Assembly (NCBI GenBank): GCA_023249375.1
Contig: JAHFCT010000001.1
Coordinates: 4,071-68,070 of the forward strand
Source: Gemmatimonadota bacterium
GTDB lineage: Bacteria > Gemmatimonadota > Gemmatimonadetes > Gemmatimonadales > Gemmatimonadaceae
Direction of reading: 5' to 3'
Length of the DNA: 64,000 nucleotides
This document shows positions 42,339 through 55,043 of the stretch, piece by piece (within the stretch, counting starts at the first letter, position 1; each line of letters begins with the position of its first letter). A program made the position numbers and the translations under genes. The notes beneath the pieces were generated by a model. That model was not told the origin of the DNA, searched no databases, and saw only the letters and a list, made by a program, of their open reading frames with translations.

Positions 42339-42953
42339 ATGCGCCTGCGCGTCTCGTTGATGGTTCTTGCCTTCGCCGCGATTCCCTCGGTCGCCGCCGC
42401 GCAACGCGGCGGTGCCGGCCGCGGCGCCCAGATTCCGCATGCCTCGGAACTCGAGGACCACAGCCCCGTGGGCGTGGTGCTCGACAAACGGAAGAAACTC
42501 TCCCTCTCGGACAGTCAGCTGACGGCGTTGAAGGGTATCGCCAAGGCGCTGCACGAAAAGGACGCTGACGCCTACAAGATGTGGGACTCCCTGCGCCTCG
42601 CGATGAACTCGGCGGGTGGCAGTCAGCTCGCCACCGGCGCGCCACGCGGCCGTTCCGCGCGCACTGGTCCGATCAGCGGCCGCAGCGGTGGCGGCAGCAG
42701 TGACGCCGGCGTCGCGCTGTCTGGCGGCGGAGCCAGCGACGCCAAGATGGTTGAAGCACGCAGCATGATGCAGGCGCTCGTTGGTCCGCTGCAGGACAAT
42801 GACGAGTGGTCGCGCCAAGAAGTGCTCAGGCTGCTCACTGACGAGCAAAAGGCCAAAGCCGAGCAACTCTGGAAGGATGATGCCGACGACTTCAAGAACG
42901 GCATCGCGCGCCCGCGCGGCGGGCCGGGCGGCGAACGGCCCCCGGGAGTCTGA
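42339..42953 (+). CDS. Exported LTxxQ-motif protein with Gly/Ser-rich insert
   Basis: This 204-residue periplasmic protein has a signal peptide ending VAAA|Q near residue 21 and a good ribosome-binding site (ggagg, 42329-42333). Two LTxxQ-like motifs are visible: LSDSQ (56-60) and LTDEQ (166-170), within helical segments. They are separated by a Gly/Ser/Arg-rich insert (about 92-135). The pattern resembles Spy/CpxP or metal-resistance sensor proteins. It lies just before an ECF sigma cassette that encodes two more LTxxQ domains, suggesting a shared envelope function. No metal-binding cluster is evident. Confidence 0.75.
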   Translation: MRLRVSLMVLAFAAIPSVAAAQRGGAGRGAQIPHASELEDHSPVGVVLDKRKKLSLSDSQLTALKGIAKALHEKDADAYKMWDSLRLAMNSAGGSQLATGAPRGRSARTGPISGRSGGGSSDAGVALSGGGASDAKMVEARSMMQALVGPLQDNDEWSRQEVLRLLTDEQKAKAEQLWKDDADDFKNGIARPRGGPGGERPPGV

Positions 42954-43007: not shown

Positions 43008-43027
43008 TTGCGTGTTTGAATACTCGG

Positions 43028-43606
43028 ATGCGAGAGCCCACCCGCGAGCCGGCAACCGACGCGACCGAAACGGCGTTGGTCGTGCGTGCACGTGGCGGCG
43101 ACCCGGCGGCGTTTGACGCGCTGGTCCGTCGCCATCTCCCGGGCGCTCTCGTTGCCGCCGAGCGACTGTTGGGTGACCGGATGGAAGCGGAGGATCTCGT
43201 GCAGGATGCGTTTCTGCGCGCGCTCGACCGCCTGCCCATGCTAGATCCCAGCCGGCCGTTCGGGCCGTGGTTCTTCACGTTGCTGCGCAACCTGGGCATC
43301 AACCAGCTGCGTGCGCGGCGGGTGCGGCACACCGAGCCAGAGTCGCTCGACGCCGCCTCGCCGGACGCGCTGCCGGACGAAGCCCTGATCAATACCGAAG
43401 TGCGTGAACGATTTGATGCGGCCCTGGCGGCGCTCACGCCGCGGCAGCGCGAGATCGTGATGCTGTTCGAAGTGGAAGGCTGGAAGGGCGTCGAGATTGC
43501 CGAACATCTCGGCCTGACGCCGGAGAACGTGCGGTGGCACCTGCATCAGGCGAAGAAGAGCCTGCGCGTGTCGCTCGCACCGCTGCGGGATGAGGGAGGC
43601 ACATGA
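43028..43606 (+). CDS. ECF sigma factor (cassette 1)
   Basis: This 192-residue sigma factor has region 2 (ALVRRHLPGALVAAERLL, EAEDLVQDAFLRALD) and region 4 (LTPRQREIVMLFEVEGWK, IAEHLGLTPENVRWHLH) with no region 1 or 3. I use ATG 43028; an in-frame TTG 12 bases earlier is possible. It overlaps the next gene as ATGA. It should direct RNA polymerase to a small envelope regulon, probably including its own operon. Confidence 0.93.
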   Translation: MREPTREPATDATETALVVRARGGDPAAFDALVRRHLPGALVAAERLLGDRMEAEDLVQDAFLRALDRLPMLDPSRPFGPWFFTLLRNLGINQLRARRVRHTEPESLDAASPDALPDEALINTEVRERFDAALAALTPRQREIVMLFEVEGWKGVEIAEHLGLTPENVRWHLHQAKKSLRVSLAPLRDEGGT

Positions 43607-43998
43607 CCAACGATCCGTTTGACCCAACCGACCGACTTTTCGGCGACGATCCTGAACGCGATGCGGCGCTTGGCGCACTGCTGCGCGAGCATCGGCTGCA
43701 CGAACGCATCATCGTGGCCGCCCGCCGGCAGCGGATGCGGCGCGTGGAAACGCCGTGGTACGGCTGGGTGGCTCGCTACGGGCGTGCCGCCGTGCCCATC
43801 GGTATCGCCGCAGCGCTGATTGCGGCGGTGATCCTCAACCGCTCGGTACGCACCGACGCCGAGTATGCGGCGCAGTCCGCGTCGGCTTCGTCCGACCTGC
43901 GCGGCGCCGTGGCTGGTGGATCGCGTGCCGCGGTCACGGACGCGGTGGTTGGCCCCGACTCCACGGAGTTCCTCATCGCCATGGCCGTAGAACGATGA
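43603..43998 (+). CDS. Short one-helix putative anti-sigma factor (cassette 1)
   Basis: This 131-residue protein has a cytosolic Asp/Arg-rich N-terminus (1-58), one membrane helix (about 60-79) and a short periplasmic tail. It has no zinc-binding HxxxCxxC motif. The ATGA overlap with the sigma gene and the topology suggest an anti-sigma factor like the small membrane-bound type exemplified by CnrY. Sequence alone does not prove binding. Confidence 0.78.
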   Translation: MTNDPFDPTDRLFGDDPERDAALGALLREHRLHERIIVAARRQRMRRVETPWYGWVARYGRAAVPIGIAAALIAAVILNRSVRTDAEYAAQSASASSDLRGAVAGGSRAAVTDAVVGPDSTEFLIAMAVER

Positions 43999-44510
43999 CC
44001 GACAACACCTCAATCGATTCCGCCGACGACATCGCGGCCGCTCCGCCCGTGCGTTCCACGCGGCTGCTGGCGGTTGGCGTCCTGCTCGTCGTGGCGCTCG
44101 CCGGCCTCATCGGCGGCGTGACGCTTGAGCGCACGGTGCTGCGACCGCACGGCTGGATGCCTCGCGTCGGCATGCCGCGCGCCGGCGATCGCCGCCCCGG
44201 GCCGCGTCGTCCGAGCGCAATGCTCGGCGCCGAACTCAAGCTGACGGAAGACCAGGCCGTGCGCATCGACACGCTCATCGAGCACCAGATGCGCGGCTTC
44301 CGTGACATCCGCCAGTCGACGCAGCCGGCCATCGATTCGCTGATGGCGCAGACCCGACGCTCGATTGACAGCATCCTGACGCCGATGCAGCGCGCCATGC
44401 TCGACTCGGCGCGCACCAAGCGCGAGGCCGAGTTCAAGAAGCGCTTCCCCAATGGCGGACCGGCGCGCGGTCCCGGCGACTGGGGCCGCCCCCCGATGCC
44501 CCGACCCTGA
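43995..44510 (+). CDS. Membrane-anchored LTxxQ (Spy/CnrX-like) sensor protein (cassette 1)
   Basis: This 171-residue protein starts at ATG 43995, overlapping the preceding stop. One membrane helix (about 23-45) anchors a periplasmic helical domain with LTEDQ (83-87) and LTPMQ (128-132), 45 residues apart. The same 45-residue spacing occurs in the protein at 50218-50583. It resembles metal-resistance sensors such as CnrX. Only two histidines (H52, H97) and a few methionines are available as possible ligands. Position after sigma and putative anti-sigma suggests it senses an envelope signal. Confidence 0.8.
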   Translation: MTDNTSIDSADDIAAAPPVRSTRLLAVGVLLVVALAGLIGGVTLERTVLRPHGWMPRVGMPRAGDRRPGPRRPSAMLGAELKLTEDQAVRIDTLIEHQMRGFRDIRQSTQPAIDSLMAQTRRSIDSILTPMQRAMLDSARTKREAEFKKRFPNGGPARGPGDWGRPPMPRP

Positions 44511-44527: not shown

Positions 44528-47500
44528 ATGCGACTTCGACTCTCTCTCGCCAGCGTGCTTCTGCTTCTGGCGCCACGGTTCGCCGCGGCGCAGGTAGGCA
44601 GCACCACCGACATCATCACCGGCACCATCCGCAACGCCGAGAACCGCCCGGTTCCCAGTGCGCGCGTTGAGGTGATGTCCATCGAACTCGGCACCACGCG
44701 CGTCCGCACGACGAACGAAAAGGGGCAGTACACGCTGCTCTTCCCCGACGGCGGCGGACAGTATCGCGTGACGGCCCGGGCCATCGGCCTGCAGCCGGCG
44801 TCGGTGACGCTCAGCCGGCTCTCGGACGAAGACCGGCTCGTTGCCGACTTCCGTCTGTCACCAACGATTGCAAGCCTCGGCGCCGTGGTCGTGAGTTCCA
44901 AGCAGACGCCGCGCTCAAACGACAATCAGCCGACCCCCGGCAGCACCGAACGGTCGCTCTCGGGCGAGCAGTTGATGCGCCTGCCTGTCGACGCGTCCGA
45001 TCCCAATGCGATCGCTGCGCTCTCGGCGGGCGTGGTGGGCATCGCGGGCACGGATACGTCGTCGGCCGGGTTTTCGGTGGCCGGGCAGCGCGCCGATCAG
45101 AACCTCGTGACGCTCGATGGCCTGTCGTTCGGCGGCAGCGTGCCGGCCGAAGCGGTGCGCAACACGCGCGTGATTACGAGCACGTACGACATCGCCCGCG
45201 GGCAGTTCACCGGCGGACAGGTTGCCTCAACGACGAAGGGTGGCACCAACGACTTGTCCGGATCGTTTGGATACGCGTTGCGCGACCCCAATCTCGAGTT
45301 CGCCACCGGTGACAACACCGGCACGACGACCTTCAGCGGCGCCTACACGCAGCATCAGCTCAGCGGCGGCGTCGGCGGCCCAATCGTCAAGGACAAGACG
45401 TTCTGGTTTGGAAGTTTTCAGGTGCGGCGACGGATGGATGCCCTGCAGTCGCTGCTCGGCGCGGGCGCGCAGACGCTCGAGGCGCTGAACGTCCAGCCGG
45501 ATTCCGCGGCACGCTTTCTGTCGCTCCTCCAGCGCTACGGGCTGCCGCTCCGAAACTCGCTGGTGCCCGACGACCGCACCACCGATGACGTGACCGGCAT
45601 CGCCCGGCTTGATCAACAGATCACGGAGGGCCACTCGCTCTCGCTGCGAGGGAACGTCTCGGGAAGCCTCCTCGACGGTTTCCGGAGTTCGGCGCAGAGT
45701 GTGCCAACGCACGCCGGCGAGCAGAAGGGGGCGAGTGTCGGCGGGCAGTTGTCGCTGTCGTCCGTGATGGGCCAGTTCCTCAACGAACTCAAGGGGACGT
45801 ATTCGTTGACCACACGCGGCGCCAACCCGTACCTACGGCTGCCGGAAGCGCGCGTCCTCGTCGGCAGCACGTTGTCGAGTGGGCAAGTGGCTCTCACCGG
45901 CCTCGATTTCGGCGGCAACGGCGCACTTCCCAATGACAACGCAACCACCGCGCTCGAAGCCACCGACGAGCTGTCTTGGCTTTCCGGCGGCGGCAAGCAT
46001 CGATGGAAGCTGGGCGGGTTGATCAACCGTTCCGGTTTCCGCACCACCGCGGGTTCCAACCGCTCGGGAAACTTTCAGTTCCAGTCGCTCGCCGACCTCG
46101 ACGCGAACCGTCCAAGCCAGTTCACGCGTTCCTTCGCGCCGGCACAGCGCGAGGGCGGCGCCATGACGGCGGCGTTGTACCTCGGCGATATCTGGCGCCC
46201 GAATCGCGCCTTCCAGCTCACGTACGGCGCGCGCGCCGAGGGCAGCGGCATTGATGGTCAGCCCGCCTATAATCCGGACATCGACGCCAAGTTCGGCCTG
46301 CACACGGACCGCATTCCATCGGACATGCGCGTCAGTCCGCGCGTTGGCTTCACGCTCACGCTCGGATTGCCGCCGGACACCGGCCGTCGCGCCAACCGTC
46401 CCGGCCAGGGCGGCGCTGGTGAAGGTCGCGGTGGTGGTGGTGGTGGTGGTGAGGGACGCGGCGGGTTTGGCGGCGGCGCCCCCGGCGGCGGCTTTGGCGG
46501 CGCCGGCGGACTCATGCAGATGCTCGGGGGACAGAATCAGCAGCAGCCGCAGATCCCACAGCCATGGATCATCCGCGGCGGAGTCGGAGAGTTCCGCGGC
46601 CGCGCGCCGACGCAGCTATTCTCGTCGGCCATCGACGCCACGGGCCTCCCGGGCGGAGAGACGCAACTCGTCTGCGTCGGGGATGCGGTGCCGACGCCGG
46701 ACTGGGCATCGTATCTGCGCGATTTCTCGACGATTCCGGCCCTCTGCGCCGACGGGTCGGGTCTGTCTGTTCCGCTCAGTCGCACACGACCCAATGTCAC
46801 CGCGTTCGCGTCCAACTTTTCGACGCCGCGGTCCATCAAGGGATCGCTCGGCGTCTCCAAGCGATTTCTCACGCGCTACAACGCGAGCGTCGACGCATCG
46901 TACTCGCTGGGGACCAGCCTGTACGGCGTCACCGACCGCAACTTGACCGAGACGCCGCAGTTCTACCTCGCGGCTGAAGGCAACCGGCCCGTGTACGTGC
47001 CCGCAATGACGATCTTCCCCTCCACCGGCGCGACGACGCTGACCGCTTCGCGGCTGCACCCCGAGTACGGCTACGTCTTCGAGGTCTCGTCACCGCTGCA
47101 GTCGCGGACCACGCAGGTGATTGCGACCGTCGGCGGCAACTCGCTACGGCAGCTGATCTGGAGCCTGTCATACACCTTCACGCGCTCCACTGACCAATCG
47201 TCCTTCTCGGGCGGCAGTGCGGCTGGCGGGTTCTCGTCGCCGACGACGGCCGGCGATCCGAATGTCATCTCCGCCACCACGAGCGACCTTGAGCGGCGCC
47301 ACGGCGTCAACGGCTCGCTGACGTGGCTGGCGCGGCCGTGGCTGGATGTCACCGGCATTCTCCGTGTGACATCGGGACAGCCGTACACGCCGCGCGTCGG
47401 CGGCGACATCAATGGCGACGGCTCGCGCAATGATCGCGCGTTCGTGTTCAGTCCCGCCTTCGCTGCCGATACGGCGATCGCGGGCGGAATGCAACGACTG

Positions 47501-48397
47501 CTCGACGTGGCGCCGGACGGTGCGCGCGCGTGCCTGGAATCGCAGACGAACCGCGTGGCTGACCGCAACAGCTGCCACGCCCCCTGGTCCACGTCGCTCG
47601 ACATGCAGCTCAACTTCCGCCCGCAGCTCGGCGCCGCCATCGGCCGGCGCTTGCAGCTGCAGGTGGGACTCGTGAACGCGCTCACCGGCATCGATCAGCT
47701 GCTGCACGGCGCCGATCACCTGCACGGCTGGGGCCAGCCCACGTTCGTGGACAACACGCTGCTCTACGTGAAGGGCTTTGACCCGGCGACGAACAGTTTC
47801 CGCTATACGGTGAACGAGCGCTTTGGCAGCAACGCGATCGCGCGCTCGGCGCTGCGCAATCCGTTCCAGATCTCGCTCACCGCGCGCATGCAGGTGGGCG
47901 TCGACCGCCAGCGCCAGCTGCTCGAGGGAATGCTGAACGCGAGCGGCGGCAACGGTAACCGGCCAGGCATGGACTTCCGCGCGATGGTGCGCCGCCTGGC
48001 ACCAAATCCGGTCACGCCGCTGATGGACCTGAAGGACATTCTCAAGCTGACGCCCGAGCAGATCACGAAGATCAAGCTCATCGGCGATTCACTGGACGCC
48101 AAGACGGCGGAGCTCAGCAAGCGCGTCGAAGCGGAAATGCAGAAGCAGGCAAAGAGCGGCGGCGACTTGCAGACGCTGTTTCCCAAACTGCAGCCGACAC
48201 TGCAGGAAGCGCGCAACAATTACGTGCAGGCCACACAGTCGCTTCAGAAGGTCCTCACGCCCGAGCAATGGGCCGAGGTCCCGGAATCAGTGAAGAACCC
48301 AACGCTTCGTCCTGGCGGTGGTCAGGGCGGCCAAGGCGGGAGACGGCCCGATGGTGCGGCCGGCGGTTCCGGCGCTGCTGGACGCCGCATCCCGTAG
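44528..48397 (+). CDS. TonB-dependent receptor with carboxypeptidase-like N-domain and C-terminal LTxxQ extension
   Basis: This 1289-residue outer membrane protein has a signal peptide ending FAAA|Q near residue 22. An N-terminal carboxypeptidase-regulatory-like beta-sandwich (about 28-115, GTIRNAENRPVPSARVEV) precedes a plug domain (about 130-250, LDGLSFGGSVPAEAVRNTRV) and a long beta-barrel. A Gly-rich loop (about 615-665) includes seven GGT codons. After the barrel a helical tail (about 1165-1289) carries LTPEQ at 1174-1178 and 1243-1247 and a coiled Lys/Gln-rich segment, ending in a Gly-rich tail. Such an extension beyond the last barrel strand should lie in the periplasm. Substrate unknown; likely controlled by the adjacent ECF sigma. 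Confidence 0.88.
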   Translation: MRLRLSLASVLLLLAPRFAAAQVGSTTDIITGTIRNAENRPVPSARVEVMSIELGTTRVRTTNEKGQYTLLFPDGGGQYRVTARAIGLQPASVTLSRLSDEDRLVADFRLSPTIASLGAVVVSSKQTPRSNDNQPTPGSTERSLSGEQLMRLPVDASDPNAIAALSAGVVGIAGTDTSSAGFSVAGQRADQNLVTLDGLSFGGSVPAEAVRNTRVITSTYDIARGQFTGGQVASTTKGGTNDLSGSFGYALRDPNLEFATGDNTGTTTFSGAYTQHQLSGGVGGPIVKDKTFWFGSFQVRRRMDALQSLLGAGAQTLEALNVQPDSAARFLSLLQRYGLPLRNSLVPDDRTTDDVTGIARLDQQITEGHSLSLRGNVSGSLLDGFRSSAQSVPTHAGEQKGASVGGQLSLSSVMGQFLNELKGTYSLTTRGANPYLRLPEARVLVGSTLSSGQVALTGLDFGGNGALPNDNATTALEATDELSWLSGGGKHRWKLGGLINRSGFRTTAGSNRSGNFQFQSLADLDANRPSQFTRSFAPAQREGGAMTAALYLGDIWRPNRAFQLTYGARAEGSGIDGQPAYNPDIDAKFGLHTDRIPSDMRVSPRVGFTLTLGLPPDTGRRANRPGQGGAGEGRGGGGGGGEGRGGFGGGAPGGGFGGAGGLMQMLGGQNQQQPQIPQPWIIRGGVGEFRGRAPTQLFSSAIDATGLPGGETQLVCVGDAVPTPDWASYLRDFSTIPALCADGSGLSVPLSRTRPNVTAFASNFSTPRSIKGSLGVSKRFLTRYNASVDASYSLGTSLYGVTDRNLTETPQFYLAAEGNRPVYVPAMTIFPSTGATTLTASRLHPEYGYVFEVSSPLQSRTTQVIATVGGNSLRQLIWSLSYTFTRSTDQSSFSGGSAAGGFSSPTTAGDPNVISATTSDLERRHGVNGSLTWLARPWLDVTGILRVTSGQPYTPRVGGDINGDGSRNDRAFVFSPAFAADTAIAGGMQRLLDVAPDGARACLESQTNRVADRNSCHAPWSTSLDMQLNFRPQLGAAIGRRLQLQVGLVNALTGIDQLLHGADHLHGWGQPTFVDNTLLYVKGFDPATNSFRYTVNERFGSNAIARSALRNPFQISLTARMQVGVDRQRQLLEGMLNASGGNGNRPGMDFRAMVRRLAPNPVTPLMDLKDILKLTPEQITKIKLIGDSLDAKTAELSKRVEAEMQKQAKSGGDLQTLFPKLQPTLQEARNNYVQATQSLQKVLTPEQWAEVPESVKNPTLRPGGGQGGQGGRRPDGAAGGSGAAGRRIP
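46430..46450 (+). repeat. In-frame (GGT)7 microsatellite
   Basis: Seven consecutive GGT codons encode seven glycines in a Gly-rich loop of the TonB-dependent receptor. Neighbouring glycines use GGC mostly, so this uniform run stands out. Confidence 0.85.
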
Positions 48398-49198: not shown

Positions 49199-49810
49199 AT
49201 GACAGCAATTGCCTTGCGTCCGACGTTCGTAGCGCCTTCGGGCCGTACCAGCCGACGCGTGACGACGCCTGACCGCCCCGACGACGAGAAGGCCCTCGTG
49301 CTATCCGCCCAGCGCGGAGAACTCGAGGCGTTCTCGGAACTCGTCCGCCGCCACCAGCGGCGCGCGTACGCCGTGGCGCGCGCCATCGTCACCACGCACG
49401 AGGACGCGGAAGACGCGGTGCAGGATGCATTCCTGCATGCCTACCGCGCGCTGCACCGCTTCCTGCCCGACCAGGCGTTCGGCGCGTGGCTGCATCGCAT
49501 CGTGGCCAACGCCTCGCTCGACATCACGCGCCGCCGTAAGGTGCGTGACGCCGATGACCTCCCGGAGACCATCGCCTCGCCGTTCCGTGATCCGGCAGAG
49601 TCGGACGAACTGCGGCGGTTGCTGCGTGCGGCGCTTGCGCGCCTCCCGGAGCGCCAGCGTGCCGTCATCGTTCTTCACGACGTCGAAGGGTTCAAGCACT
49701 CAGAGATCGGCCAAACACTCGGCATTCCCGAGGGGACGGCGCGTTCCGACCTGCACTATGCACGGTCGGCGCTGCGACGCCTTCTCACTCAGCTTCGGAG
49801 TCCCCAATGA
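49199..49810 (+). CDS. ECF sigma factor (cassette 2)
   Basis: This 203-residue sigma factor has region 2 (ELVRRHQRRAYAVARAIV, EDAVQDAFLHAYRAL, FGAWLHRIVAN) and region 4 (LPERQRAVIVLHDVEGFK, EIGQTLGIPEGTARSDLHY). It overlaps the next gene as ATGA. It should drive the envelope and efflux operon that follows. Confidence 0.93.
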   Translation: MTAIALRPTFVAPSGRTSRRVTTPDRPDDEKALVLSAQRGELEAFSELVRRHQRRAYAVARAIVTTHEDAEDAVQDAFLHAYRALHRFLPDQAFGAWLHRIVANASLDITRRRKVRDADDLPETIASPFRDPAESDELRRLLRAALARLPERQRAVIVLHDVEGFKHSEIGQTLGIPEGTARSDLHYARSALRRLLTQLRSPQ

Positions 49811-50187
49811 CCAGCGATTACTCCACCCCGCATCTCGTCCCCGATGAGGGCGATGCGGATCTCACCACCGTGTTGCGCTCGCTGTACGCCGCGCCCGACA
49901 GCGCCGGCTACTGGAGCGCGCTCGAGCAGCGTATCATGGATCGCATCGCCGGCGGCGAGCCGCTCGACGCCTGGTGGTCCGTCCCCACGCAGTGGGTCCG
50001 CATTGGACTCATCGCGGCGGGCTTTGCCCTGATCGTCGCTGGCTCGCTCTTCCTGCGCTCGCGTGCCGAGCAGCGGCAGATGGCATACGAGTCGGTGCTG
50101 GAACCGGGCGCCGTCGGCCCGACGCTTGCCATTCGTGATGCACAGACCGAGCGGCAGGCGACGCTCAATTACATCAACGGGCGGTAG
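49807..50187 (+). CDS. Short one-helix putative anti-sigma factor (cassette 2)
   Basis: This 126-residue protein has an acidic cytosolic N-terminus (1-60), one membrane helix (about 65-84) and a short periplasmic tail. It lacks a zinc-anti-sigma motif. ATGA overlap with the sigma gene and topology match the protein at 43603-43998, so the same role is inferred. Confidence 0.78.
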   Translation: MTSDYSTPHLVPDEGDADLTTVLRSLYAAPDSAGYWSALEQRIMDRIAGGEPLDAWWSVPTQWVRIGLIAAGFALIVAGSLFLRSRAEQRQMAYESVLEPGAVGPTLAIRDAQTERQATLNYINGR

Positions 50188-50217
50188 CCCCAGCGGCGCC
50201 GCGAGACCTCGCCGAAC

Positions 50218-50583
50218 ATGACGCGAACGAAAGGGATGGCCTTGGCGTTTTATCTGGCGGCGGCCGTGGCCGGCCTCGCCATCGGCGTCGCCGTTGACCG
50301 GCTGCTCGTTCCCAGCACCACGGTGCGCGCCACCACGCGCGCCATGCGCGACCGCTTTGCGAAGGACCTCAAGCTGACCGCCGACCAGCGGTCGGCCGTG
50401 GACAACGTTCTTGATGCGCGGTTCCGGTCCGAGTCCATTCTCGTCGTCCCCATTCGCCCCCAGCTCGACTCCGTCCGCGCCGAGGCCCGCCTCAAGATCT
50501 CGGCATTACTCACGCCCGAGCAGCAACGCGTGTATGAACAAATGCAGCGGGACCAGAAAGCCCGCGCGCAGGAGAAGAAATAG
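50218..50583 (+). CDS. Membrane-anchored LTxxQ (Spy/CnrX-like) sensor protein (cassette 2)
   Basis: This 121-residue protein has an N-terminal helix (about 7-27) and a periplasmic helical domain with LTADQ (53-57) and LTPEQ (98-102), 45 residues apart as in the protein at 43995-44510. It contains no Cys or His and few Met, so a metal ligand set like CnrX is not evident. It is three bases before the TolC gene, so it is part of the same transcript. Confidence 0.8.
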   Translation: MTRTKGMALAFYLAAAVAGLAIGVAVDRLLVPSTTVRATTRAMRDRFAKDLKLTADQRSAVDNVLDARFRSESILVVPIRPQLDSVRAEARLKISALLTPEQQRVYEQMQRDQKARAQEKK

Positions 50584-50586
50584 GAC

Positions 50587-51891
50587 ATGATGCGCGTTTC
50601 AATGCTCTTGATCGCCGTGCCTTTTGCCCTCGCCGCCCAGCAGCCGGCGGGCGACGGCGCACGCCCCATTCCGCTCGACGAGGCCGTGCGCCTCGCCCAG
50701 CGCAACAATCCGGCCGCCGTCACCGCCCGCAACGCGCTGCGCACCACGACCGCCGCGGTGCGCTCGGCGTACGGCCAGTACCTGCCGTCGTTCTCCGCCA
50801 ACGGCTCCGGCTCGCGGTCGGGCGGCGAGACGTTCTTTCAGGGCAAGCTCGTGCCGTACAGCGGCGCGCCCTGGTCGTACTCGCGCGGTCTTTCCACCAG
50901 CCTCGAGCTGTTTGACGGCGGCCGGCGCTGGTACAACCTCAAGTCGGCGCAGGCGAATGTTGATGCCGCCGACGCGAGCGAGACCTCGCAGCAGTTCAGC
51001 CTCAGCCTGCAGGTGAAGCAGCAGTACTTCGCCGTGCTCGCCGCGCGCGAAAGCCAGGCCGCGGCCCAGCGCCAGCTCGAGCAGTCCGCCGAGCAGCTGA
51101 AGTCGTCCACCGCCAAGGTGCGTGCCGGTGCGGCCACCAAGAGCGACTCGCTGCGCAGCATCATCCAGGTAGGTAATGCGCGGCTCGCGCTGCTCACGGC
51201 CGAGAACAACATGCGCGTGGCCAACGCCGCGCTCAGCCGCCTGATCGGCTCCACCGAAGTTGTCACGGCCTCGCCGGCCGACACGGCCGAGATGGGCCGC
51301 ATCGTCCTCGATAGCGCCGCGCTCATCACGCTCGCGTTGCAGGGCCCAACCGTCCGCTCGGCCGAGTCGGCACTGCTGGCGGCGCAGGCCGCACGCAAAG
51401 CGTCGCGCACACCGTACATGCCGACGGTCTCCTCGTCCTATAGTCTCAGCGGCAACAACACCTCCGACGGGTTCGACTTTGGCAGCGGCCGCATTCCGAA
51501 GCAGACGAGCCTCCGGCTGACGCTGAGCTGGACCCTGTTCAACAACTTCACGCGTGAGGAGAACCTCATGCGCTCGACCGTGGCCGAGGACAATGCCACG
51601 GCGTCGCTCCGCGATGCCAAGCTCGCCCAGCAGCAGTCGCTGGTGCAGTACCTCGGCGCGTTCCGCACCGCCGAAGAGCGTGTGGCGATTCAGCTGTCCA
51701 CCATCGCCGCCGCCGACGAAGACCTGCGCGTGCAGCAGCAGCGCTACGCGCTCGGCGCGTCCGTGCTGCTGGACCTGTTGACCTCGCAGACGACGCTTGA
51801 TCAGGCGCGCGCCGCGCTCATTCAGGCACGGTATGACGCCCGTATCGCCAAGGCACAGGTCGAGGCCCTCGTCGGCCGCGATCTCAAGTGA
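50587..51891 (+). CDS. TolC-family outer membrane efflux protein
   Basis: This 434-residue channel protein has a signal peptide ending ALAA|Q near residue 17 and the TolC helical pattern (IPLDEAVRLAQRNNPA near the N-terminus, RYALGASVLLDLLTSQ near the C-terminus). It should form the outer membrane exit duct for the following adaptor and permease. The stop overlaps a possible upstream GTG of the adaptor gene. Confidence 0.92.
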   Translation: MMRVSMLLIAVPFALAAQQPAGDGARPIPLDEAVRLAQRNNPAAVTARNALRTTTAAVRSAYGQYLPSFSANGSGSRSGGETFFQGKLVPYSGAPWSYSRGLSTSLELFDGGRRWYNLKSAQANVDAADASETSQQFSLSLQVKQQYFAVLAARESQAAAQRQLEQSAEQLKSSTAKVRAGAATKSDSLRSIIQVGNARLALLTAENNMRVANAALSRLIGSTEVVTASPADTAEMGRIVLDSAALITLALQGPTVRSAESALLAAQAARKASRTPYMPTVSSSYSLSGNNTSDGFDFGSGRIPKQTSLRLTLSWTLFNNFTREENLMRSTVAEDNATASLRDAKLAQQQSLVQYLGAFRTAEERVAIQLSTIAAADEDLRVQQQRYALGASVLLDLLTSQTTLDQARAALIQARYDARIAKAQVEALVGRDLK

Positions 51892-51926
51892 CCCGCCACC
51901 GACCGACGCCCCTTTTGGAGCTCCTC

Positions 51927-53816
51927 GTGAACCGCCGATTCCTCTTTGCGCTCGCCGCAATCTCGTCCCTCGCCGCCTGCGGCAAGAAGGCCGAAAAAAC
52001 GGTCCCCATCCAGACCGCGCCCGTCACGCGCCGCGACATCGTGGTCGACGCCACGGCCACCGCGATCATTGAGCCCATCAACGTCGTCGAGGTCAAATCC
52101 AAGACGGCGTCGGGGCAGATCACCAAGATGACCGTCGAGGTCGGCTCCTACGTGAAGCCGGGCGATCTGATTGTCCAGATCGACACGCGCGACCTCATCA
52201 ATGCGTCCAATCAGGCGCAGGCGGACTTCGACGCCGCGCAGGCCAAGCTCAACACGTCGACGGCGCAGAAGAAGCGCTCGGATGACTTGTTCAAGCAGCG
52301 CATCATCACGGCGACCGAGAACGAAACCGCCAACCTCGACTTCGCCAACTCGCAGGCCAGCTTCGTGCGCGCCAAGACGTCGCTCGACCTCGCCCAGCAG
52401 CGTCTCGAGGACGCCACGGTGCGCGCGCCGGTCGAAGGCACGGTCATCGACAAGACCGTTTCGCTTGGCCAGGTCATTCAGGCCGGCACGTCATCGGTCG
52501 GCGGCGGGTCCACCATTCTCAAGATGGCCAACCTCCAGCGCGTGCGCGCCCGTGCCCTCGTCAACGAAACGGACATCGGGCAGATCATGGCGGGGCAGGA
52601 AGCTACGGTGACCGTGGACGCGTTTCCCGACCGCCCGTTCCACGGCAAGGTCGAGAAGGTCGAGCCGCAGGCGGTCGTGCAGCAGAACGTCACGATGTTC
52701 CCCGTGCTCATCTCGCTCACCAACGAAGAAGGACTGCTCAAGCCCGGCATGAACGGCGAGGCGGCCGTGCTGGTCGACCGCCGCACCAGCGTGCTCGCGA
52801 TCCCGAATGACGCCGTGCGCAACATGCGCGAAGTCCAGACCGTCGCGCCGCTGCTCAACCTCAACCCCGACAGCGTGCGCGCGCAGCTGCGCTCGAGCAT
52901 GGGCGGCGGCATGGGTGGCTTCAACGGCGGCGGCGGACGCGGCCAGGGCGGACAGGGCGGACAGGGCGGCAACCGCGGTGCACAGGGACGCAGCACGCAG
53001 ACCAGCAATGGCGACGTCGATCTGCCGCCGCAGGGCGCTGATCGTCAGGGCGGCGGTGGCGGCGGCTTCCAGCAGGTGGAAGTCACCGACGCCGATTGCA
53101 AGAAGGTGAGCGACGCGCTCAAGAAGCAGCCGGCCGTGGCCAAGCAACTCGACGCGATGCGCGATCAGATGCGCAACCCCGATGCCGATCGCCGCGCGAT
53201 GTTCACGCAGATGCAGGAGTTGTACTCGAAGCTCGGCATGGACCAGCGCATCGTCGGCGCGTGCCGTCGCCGTGAAAGCGGCAACACCGGTGGCGGTGCC
53301 ATGGGTGGCGGACGCGGACAGGGTGGACAGGGCACACAGGGTGGGGCTCAGGGCACCCGCAGTGGCGGCCGCAACGGTAGCGGTCAGAGCGGACAGGGTG
53401 GACAGTCCAGTGGCGCACAGGGCAGCCGCGGTGATCAGGCCGGCCGAAGCGTCGACGTGCCGCAGGCGCCGGGCATGCGCTCACGCACCCGCACGGGTCT
53501 CGTCTTCGTGCAGAAGGCCGATTCCACGTGGGAGCCGCGCATGGTGCGCCTTGGTGTCGCCAACTTCGATTTCACCGAAGTGCTCGATGGCGTGAAGGAA
53601 GGCGAACGCGTGGCCTTGCTGTCGGCCGCGGCGATGCAGGCGCAGCGTCAGGCGCAGAACGACCGCGCTCGCCAGATGATGGGCGGCGGCAGTCCGCTGG
53701 GCGGCGCGACGGCCGGCCCGGGCGGTGGCGGTGCCCGTCCGCAGGGTGGCGCTCCGCAGGGCGGCGGCGCCACCGGCGGCGCCAGCGCTGGCGGTGCGGC
53801 CCGTCGGGGGAATTGA
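51927..53816 (+). CDS. MacA-like periplasmic adaptor lipoprotein with long Gly/Gln-rich insert
   Basis: This adaptor of 629 residues starts with GTG at 51927, supported by ttttggag (51913-51920) and a lipobox SLAAC near residue 18; a GTG at 51888 is the alternative. Residues 30-290 hold the normal lipoyl, hairpin and beta-barrel domains (DATVRAPVEGTVIDK, FPDRPFHGKVEKVEP). Instead of continuing directly to the membrane-proximal domain, it has a Gly/Gln/Arg-rich insert (about 325-520) enclosing a helical island with C391 and C446. A C-terminal Gly-rich tail follows the final domain. Standard MacA is about 370 residues. It probably pairs with the following permease. Confidence 0.88.
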   Translation: MNRRFLFALAAISSLAACGKKAEKTVPIQTAPVTRRDIVVDATATAIIEPINVVEVKSKTASGQITKMTVEVGSYVKPGDLIVQIDTRDLINASNQAQADFDAAQAKLNTSTAQKKRSDDLFKQRIITATENETANLDFANSQASFVRAKTSLDLAQQRLEDATVRAPVEGTVIDKTVSLGQVIQAGTSSVGGGSTILKMANLQRVRARALVNETDIGQIMAGQEATVTVDAFPDRPFHGKVEKVEPQAVVQQNVTMFPVLISLTNEEGLLKPGMNGEAAVLVDRRTSVLAIPNDAVRNMREVQTVAPLLNLNPDSVRAQLRSSMGGGMGGFNGGGGRGQGGQGGQGGNRGAQGRSTQTSNGDVDLPPQGADRQGGGGGGFQQVEVTDADCKKVSDALKKQPAVAKQLDAMRDQMRNPDADRRAMFTQMQELYSKLGMDQRIVGACRRRESGNTGGGAMGGGRGQGGQGTQGGAQGTRSGGRNGSGQSGQGGQSSGAQGSRGDQAGRSVDVPQAPGMRSRTRTGLVFVQKADSTWEPRMVRLGVANFDFTEVLDGVKEGERVALLSAAAMQAQRQAQNDRARQMMGGGSPLGGATAGPGGGGARPQGGAPQGGGATGGASAGGAARRGN

Positions 53817-53819
53817 TTC

Positions 53820-55043
53820 ATGCTTTTCGGTGAAACGATCATGGTGGCGCTGGGCGCGCTGCGCGCGAACAAGCTGCGTTCCCTGCTCACGATGCTTGGC
53901 ATCGTGATCGGCGTCGCCGCCGTGATCGCCGTGGTCGCACTCGGCCGCGGCGCGCAGAAGGCGGTGAATGATCGCATCTCGGCGCTGGGCACCACGCTGC
54001 TGACCGTCAGCCCGGGCCAGGCCATGGGCCAGGGCGGCGTGCGCACCGGCTTCGGCAGCGCGCGCCTCACCATTGAGGACGCCAAGGCGCTTGAAGACCG
54101 CGGCGAGAAGATCCTTGCGGTGCAGCCCGAAATGTCGGGCCAGCTGCAGGTGCAGTACCTGAACAAGAACACCAACACGCAGATCGTCGGCGTCACGTCG
54201 AACTATCCGGACGTCCGCAAGTACGAACTCGCCGCGGGCCGCTTCTTCACGCAGGCCGAGGATAACTCGCGCCAGCGCCTCGCCATCATCGGCCCGACGG
54301 TGCTCGAGAATCTCGGGCTGCAGGCACCCGACGGCATCATCGGCGAGACCATTCGCATTCGCGGCATCCAGTGCACGGTGATCGGCGTGTACAAATCGAA
54401 GGGCCAGGCATCGCCATTCAACAACCCGGATGACCAGGTCCTGATTCCCATTACGACCGCGCGCTTCCGCATCCTCGGTCAGAACCGCGTGCGCTCCATC
54501 AGCGTGCTCTCGCCGTCGGAAGACGACATTCCCGAGACGATGGCCGAGATCCAGAAGATCCTGCGCCGCGAGCACCGGCTGCGCTCGGGCAAGGACGACG
54601 ATTTCAACACGCGGTCGCAGGCCGACTTCCTCAATACGCTCGGCGAGACGACGCAGGTGTTCTCGCTGCTGCTGGCGGGCATCGCCACCGTCTCGCTGAT
54701 CGTCGGCGGCATTGGCATCATGAACATCATGCTCGTGTCGGTCACCGAACGCACCCGCGAGATCGGCATTCGCAAGGCGCTCGGCGCGACGCGGCTGAAC
54801 ATCATGTTCCAGTTCCTCGTCGAGGCCGTCGTGCTCTGCCTGGTCGGCGGCGCCATTGGCATCCTCGTCGGCACGGGCGGCGCCACGGCGTTCACGCGAA
54901 TCATGGGGTGGACCACCGAGGTGGGCTCCACCGCCGTGGCCCTCGCGTTTGGATTCTCGGCGGCCGTCGGCGTCGTGTTCGGCGTGTATCCCGCGCGGCG
55001 GGCCGCAACGATGGACCCGATTGTCGCACTGCGATACGAATAG
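53820..55043 (+). CDS. MacB-type ABC permease without fused ATPase
   Basis: This 407-residue protein has an N-terminal helix (about 22-43, LLTMLGIVIGVAAVIAVV), a large periplasmic MacB core domain (about 50-275) and a three-helix FtsX domain (TERTREIGIRKALGAT at the conserved loop). There is no nucleotide-binding domain, whereas E. coli MacB carries one at its N-terminus. No separate ATPase gene lies nearby. With the adaptor and TolC it should form a MacAB-TolC-like complex once an ATPase is supplied. Confidence 0.93.
   Translation: MLFGETIMVALGALRANKLRSLLTMLGIVIGVAAVIAVVALGRGAQKAVNDRISALGTTLLTVSPGQAMGQGGVRTGFGSARLTIEDAKALEDRGEKILAVQPEMSGQLQVQYLNKNTNTQIVGVTSNYPDVRKYELAAGRFFTQAEDNSRQRLAIIGPTVLENLGLQAPDGIIGETIRIRGIQCTVIGVYKSKGQASPFNNPDDQVLIPITTARFRILGQNRVRSISVLSPSEDDIPETMAEIQKILRREHRLRSGKDDDFNTRSQADFLNTLGETTQVFSLLLAGIATVSLIVGGIGIMNIMLVSVTERTREIGIRKALGATRLNIMFQFLVEAVVLCLVGGAIGILVGTGGATAFTRIMGWTTEVGSTAVALAFGFSAAVGVVFGVYPARRAATMDPIVALRYE

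Follow-up and report, generated by a model that had tools for sequence, protein, structure and literature searches.

Both ends of a TonB-dependent barrel face the periplasm. Spy and CpxP are free proteins of that compartment; proteins of the Spy family bind unfolded proteins and prevent their aggregation, and the binding face of Spy is positive. CnrX is a metal sensor for a sigma system, CnrX-type metal sensors carry conserved His metal ligands, and proteins of the Spy/CnrX fold pair as dimers. Among the receptors themselves, one of the known systems closest to the protein considered here is Oar of Myxococcus, which shares its N-terminal architecture and which, according to the accessible text of the survey describing it, is needed to secrete the protease PopC (PMC6434023). 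In the same text, 34,893 TBDTs were sorted by N-terminal architecture only (PMC6434023). Among titles and the beginnings of abstracts of mostly open papers, no fusion of an LTXXQ domain to a TonB receptor was found, and the two terms occurred together only for a study of Bradyrhizobium nodulation (PMC8125078).

The window, by which we mean the whole stretch of 64,000 nucleotides of Gemmatimonadota DNA that was analyzed, encodes an Oar-type receptor that continues beyond its barrel. Its features are as follows (residues are those of the receptor).

44528-48397, + strand: Oar-type TonB-dependent receptor with a C-terminal LTXXQ domain, 1289 aa (open reading frame; PF13620, PF25183, and PF07813 all above cut-off)
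44615-44857, + strand: N-terminal CarboxypepD_reg domain, residues 30-110 (PF13620, E 6.9e-14)
44861-44875, + strand: VVVSS, residues 112-116, a TonB-box-like stretch identified by eye, with a putative role in TonB binding
47867-47893, + strand: last predicted barrel strand, residues 1114-1122 (low-confidence AlphaFold model of residues 125-1289; comparison with receptors ending there)
47906-47989, + strand: linker from barrel to tail, residues 1127-1154 (alignment; pN/pS 0.39)
47990-48301, + strand: LTXXQ tail domain with two long helices, residues 1155-1258 (Pfam, model, 33-row alignment A1)
48047-48061 and 48254-48268, + strand: LTPEQ motifs at residues 1174 and 1243
48311-48394, + strand: Gly-rich C-terminal end, probably disordered, residues 1262-1289 (~28 residues; sequence, pLDDT <50)

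Pfam assigned the barrel domain to PF25183 (116.6 bits against a cut-off of 30) and residues 1165-1249 to the LTXXQ family, PF07813. The score for the latter was 24.6 bits when the whole protein was searched (E 4.1e-5) and 29.7 bits when the tail was searched alone (E 1.1e-6), against a cut-off of 24.3. As in the Pfam criterion for LTXXQ, the sequence and the tail model together place two LTxxQ motifs on either side of a helical hairpin. The receptor's Pfam matches up to E 1 do not include an STN domain (PF07660), and at E <= 0.01 no NCBIfam family matches the receptor. A Gly-rich insertion (~residues 621-689; window 46388-46594) lies inside the barrel region, and Gly-rich inserts resembling it occur in a MacA-like protein encoded at 51888-53816.

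The initial annotation had described a helical extension after the barrel at about residues 1165-1289, with LTPEQ at 1174 and 1243. Translation confirmed both motif positions exactly, and a helical tail is indeed present, but its helical part lies nearer 1155-1258, because the last ~28 residues are Gly-rich and probably disordered. The AlphaFold model of the tail alone was moderate (mean pLDDT 73.9, 12 sequences) and predicted long helices at 1176-1210 and 1214-1242, with LTPEQ at their ends and a short further helix at about 1245-1250. The model of residues 125-1289 was poor (mean pLDDT 52, 12 sequences), with the last strand at 1114-1122 and helices only thereafter. A reading of the tail as barrel strands was ruled out by this modeling, in which the tail is predicted to be helical behind the last strand in both cases. 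Within the window's genus the tail is under purifying selection (pN/pS 0.33, compared with 0.22 for the barrel and 0.39 for the linker).

The receptor is preceded in the window by a cluster that encodes further LTxxQ proteins.

42339-42953, + strand: secreted LTxxQ-like protein heading the cluster (PF07813 below cut-off, 20.7 bits; homologs in the loci of the genus)
43028-43606, + strand: ECF sigma factor of the genus-specific operon (Pfam Sigma70_r2 and r4_2; the open reading frame opens with TTG at 43016, and relatives' gene calls favor 43028)
43603-43998, + strand: single-span membrane protein of 131 aa, probable anti-sigma partner (position and a hydrophobic stretch seen by eye; no Pfam match; conserved in the genus)
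43995-44510, + strand: membrane-anchored LTxxQ protein of 171 aa with a CnrX-like layout (PF07813 below cut-off, 19.9 bits; its family profile matches the tail; anchor seen by eye)

Profile-profile comparison matched the tail to the LTxxQ proteins of the sigma operon with 94% probability (E 1.4e-7, 60 columns) and to the tails of two paralog groups with 97.6% and 94.3%; five control pairs (anti-sigma, sigma, and column-shuffled profiles) gave 0.1-0.3%. On this evidence from sequence profiles, the tail is remotely homologous to the sigma operon's LTxxQ sensor, in agreement with the earlier proposal that the receptor carries its own chaperone-like (Spy/CpxP/CnrX-family) domain related to the LTxxQ proteins of the operon.

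The best solved match for the tail was a VirG-like protein of Salmonella (5ihf/5io8), which was found by sequence profile (E 0.025) and also led the Foldseek results (probability 0.99, E 0.13), neither match being significant alone. Foldseek with the tail returned nothing at E <= 0.001, and P0003 gave no solved relative at a meaningful E-value. PDB matches from the wider profile A1, with E-values up to 0.018, look like chance helical matches and were set aside. In VIA-align the tail scored Z 7.8 with CnrX (99 residues, rmsd 3.0), 7.5 with NccX (107 residues), 6.9 with Spy 3o39 (85 residues, rmsd 3.7), and 6.7 with ZraP, values that unrelated helical proteins equal. Fold similarity alone therefore cannot settle the family of the tail, which is settled by Pfam and the profile comparison. 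Across the 33 aligned rows the tail has no conserved His (the top share of His in any column is 6%) and Cys occurs in one row, which speaks against metal sensing based on His; the net charge averages +1.9 (range -2 to +6), close to neutral.

The combination of barrel and tail is widespread in the phylum. With the barrel end plus tail as query, 198 of 297 phylum genomes gave a match at E 1e-3, a count that includes weak matches (E 1e-3 to 1e-8) that are possibly separate LTxxQ proteins. For this reason we rely on the matches at E <= 1e-12, which were found in at least 150 of the 297 genomes and at least 58 of 119 genera; these are lower bounds based on 11 candidates scored per genome, and a few of the matches are tail-only frames. 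The tail alone as query was matched at E <= 0.01 in 62 of 99 relatives. Named records with homologs were mostly Gemmatimonadetes or Gemmatimonadaceae genomes from metagenomes, together with Gemmatirosa kalamazoonensis (NZ_CP007129.1). Tailed homologs thus occur throughout the phylum. The initial annotation had named a lack of such homologs beyond one strain as grounds for refuting its idea, and the spread seen here rules out a single-strain fusion or an assembly join. The window's own genome encodes two closer paralogs, both with diverged tails, while the other Oar-like receptors there end at the barrel. Outside the phylum, two Bacteroidota plasmid receptors likewise end at the barrel, and no relative was found on viral contigs.

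A profile of the barrel only, applied to 31 genomes, yielded 79 receptor rows, with 51 at 140 bits or above and 28 below. The high-score rows all continue for 139 residues or more past the barrel except one that is cut by a contig end (L178). In these 31 genomes a C-terminal extension is present in all complete receptors of a single barrel clade, and all receptors outside this clade end at the barrel. In a tree of 78 rows, from which the cut row was omitted, 50 extended and 28 unextended rows were split by a branch with support of 100/95, such that one change is needed. Tree labels were assigned by barrel score (140 bits or above, plus the split hit L198), and the score split coincides with the presence of the extension. 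The 50 tailed rows correspond to 48 genes, two genes of genome G040 having entered twice via overlapping loci (L142 and L166), and in three rows (L192, L195, and L198) the extension is present with no match to the tail HMM and was accepted on LTxxQ-like motifs seen by eye. Collectively, these observations indicate that the tail arose once, in one clade of Gemmatimonadota Oar-type receptors, and was then retained.

The two groups also differ at their ends, 5 of the 51 tailed-group rows having an aromatic C-terminal residue versus 21 of the 28 others. This difference, the position of the tail close behind the last strand, and the ability of Spy-family domains to stop aggregation would suit a domain acting in cis on assembly or stability, which would shield its own barrel from aggregation or early folding until insertion by BAM. 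We regard such a role as distinctly unlikely, given that the same genomes also encode receptors of broadly this kind with no tail and that, in a protein described below, the tail is retained with no barrel to assemble.

Linker length differs greatly among relatives, many of which have a Gly-rich linker, while the tail domain is conserved, and tandem arrays of two or more tail domains occur in receptors or receptor ends from four genomes (G146, G178, G297, and G299). Both properties argue that the tail is tethered rather than structural. Tandem LTxxQ tails were seen at loci L219, L221, L222, and L218, the last being a receptor end cut by a contig. Other arrangements include tailed receptors broken by frame breaks that are either assembly errors or pseudogenes (L257, L258, and L259), same-strand tandem pairs of tailed-kind receptors (L063, in which one member is partial, and L069), and two different tailed receptors of G040 lying tail to tail, 46 bases apart (L048/L061). 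Loci L254 and L260 are cut by contig ends.

One genus (g5) encodes a barrel-less protein of ~254 aa in which a signal peptide, a CarboxypepD_reg domain, a TonB-box-like SMVEITG, and the tail domain follow one another with no plug or barrel (L253, 3551-4315, and L263-L270). Pfam finds CarboxypepD_reg and not LTXXQ in this protein, the tail being matched by the tail profile built here. Of 19 genomes of the genus, eight encode it at near full length, one of them with an internal stop, and within the protein constraint is strongest on the tail (pN/pS 0.20 versus 0.30 for CarboxypepD_reg). Its existence speaks for cooperation between the receptor's two periplasmic ends that does not need the barrel and so weakens a purely barrel-assembling role, although the protein could instead be a regulator or decoy.

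The barrel-less protein also bears on a docking role, in which the tail would bind peptidoglycan, a lipoprotein, or TonB/ExbD and thereby position or gate the receptor, by analogy with OmpA and its periplasmic domain. By keeping the N-terminal domain and the TonB-box-like stretch, the barrel-less version could compete for TonB, and the position of the tail on a flexible linker is as a tether would require; yet the receptor matches no peptidoglycan-binding family in Pfam and LTXXQ domains are not known to bind the cell wall, which leaves structural docking improbable in our estimation.

Genomic context separates the window's genus from the rest of the phylum. In all nine genomes of the genus that have the receptor, its gene is immediately preceded by those for the sigma factor, membrane protein, and LTxxQ protein, and the two genomes of the genus without the receptor also lack the LTxxQ protein, save one weak match (5.6e-4) that resembles the protein of a second triad. 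Outside the genus, the triad is upstream of the tailed receptor in 0 of 32 fetched loci, two of which overlap (L048 and L061) and one of which has no upstream sequence (L043). No neighboring gene is conserved outside the genus among the four genes on each side, where the largest cluster comprises seven loci with mixed strands and positions. In G040 a sigma gene and an LTxxQ gene lie on the divergent strand within ~2.5 kb of a tailed receptor, and at L054 a sigma gene lies on the strand opposite the tailed receptor. The sigma/LTxxQ pair is itself widespread, with a sigma gene in all 30 loci fetched with the sensor and 24 distinct anti-sigma-like matches at those loci. Since the tail and the pair are each widespread apart from one another, two old elements met in the window's genus, and the lack of the triad at the 32 outside loci indicates that the tail is older than the sigma link and works without the sigma operon.

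At window 49199-55043, the second triad of sigma factor, membrane protein, and LTxxQ protein is followed by TolC-like, HlyD/MacA-like, and MacB-like genes (named by eye). Its sigma factor has homologs at E 1e-71 or better beside LTxxQ genes at six loci (L240, L242, L244, L245, L248, and L249).

These patterns bear on the suggestion, made with the initial annotation, that the state of the receptor feeds back to the sigma module. Such feedback would have the tail pair with the LTxxQ protein at 43995-44510, so that receptor occupancy or misfolding alters anti-sigma binding of the sigma factor at 43028-43606, as a C-terminal counterpart of the N-terminal STN signaling domain of FecA. The homology of the two LTxxQ domains, the operon order kept throughout the genus, and the sigma gene found with every fetched sensor are as this mechanism would predict, whereas the triad's restriction to the genus, the far greater age of the tail, and the lack of a visible ligand site are not, and we consider the mechanism unlikely overall. 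As a general role, feedback does not hold; at the level of the genus it is possible, because receptor and triad are co-inherited (nine genomes have both and two have neither). If the tail signals, it would offer the cell another route for sensing a TonB receptor from the inner side. An extension of this mechanism would be an LTXXQ code shared across the periplasm of Gemmatimonadota, in which outer-membrane receptor tails, the membrane-anchored LTXXQ subunits of sigma modules, and barrel-less CarboxypepD_reg-LTXXQ proteins report receptor state by pairing between like folds, with receptor, sensor, and sigma factor encoded together in the window's operon. We hold this extension to be doubtful; were it true, the operon would be a C-terminal, LTXXQ-based alternative to STN/FecR signaling.

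Because both barrel ends are periplasmic, so is the tail domain, which has the plug and the CarboxypepD_reg domain as neighbors. Our best explanation, offered tentatively, is that the tail may be a tethered Spy-type binding arm at the receptor's inner mouth. Its helical hairpin would hold a protein there, be it a partner in the envelope or a polypeptide in transit, for which the need of Oar in PopC secretion is a precedent, and would act jointly with the CarboxypepD_reg/TonB-box region at the N-terminus. The receptor gene would, in the window's genus, have been captured by the sigma/anti-sigma/LTxxQ operon, which probably co-regulates it. Several observations weigh against a binding arm: the near-neutral charge of the tail differs from the positive binding face of Spy, no conserved gene among the four on each side points to a client, partner, or cargo, and the fold match is soft, being equaled by unrelated helical proteins. 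Also on this side, the putative chaperone activity of the tail is read from family resemblance, and in CnrX the same fold serves as a sensor. Should the arm hold polypeptides, direct protein transport by Oar-type receptors would become testable through one domain, for which the barrel-less protein offers a soluble handle for experiment.

Compared with known systems, the tail shares with Spy and CpxP the PF07813 family, two LTxxQ motifs around a long helical hairpin, and a periplasmic location, but here the domain forms the C-terminus of an outer-membrane receptor rather than a free protein. The VirG-like protein (5ihf/5io8) has two LTxxQ motifs that align with those of the tail and differs in being a small separate protein. 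CnrX and NccX resemble the tail in helical fold, to a degree that unrelated helical proteins match, and the order of sigma factor, membrane protein, and LTxxQ protein in the window's operon resembles that of Cnr systems; CnrX and NccX are membrane-anchored sensors, whereas the receptor tail lacks the conserved His. The signaling receptors FecA and FpvA likewise carry an extra periplasmic domain on a TonB receptor beside an ECF sigma gene, but the extra domain of the window's receptor is a C-terminal LTXXQ domain and not STN, and its sigma link is limited to one genus. Oar of Myxococcus xanthus shares the signal peptide, CarboxypepD_reg domain (PF13620), and TonB-dependent barrel, and the accessible text of the Oar-type survey does not name a C-terminal LTXXQ domain (PMC6434023). 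A clade of TonB-dependent receptors defined by a C-terminal domain of a chaperone family is a layout different from those recognized by N-terminal sorting.
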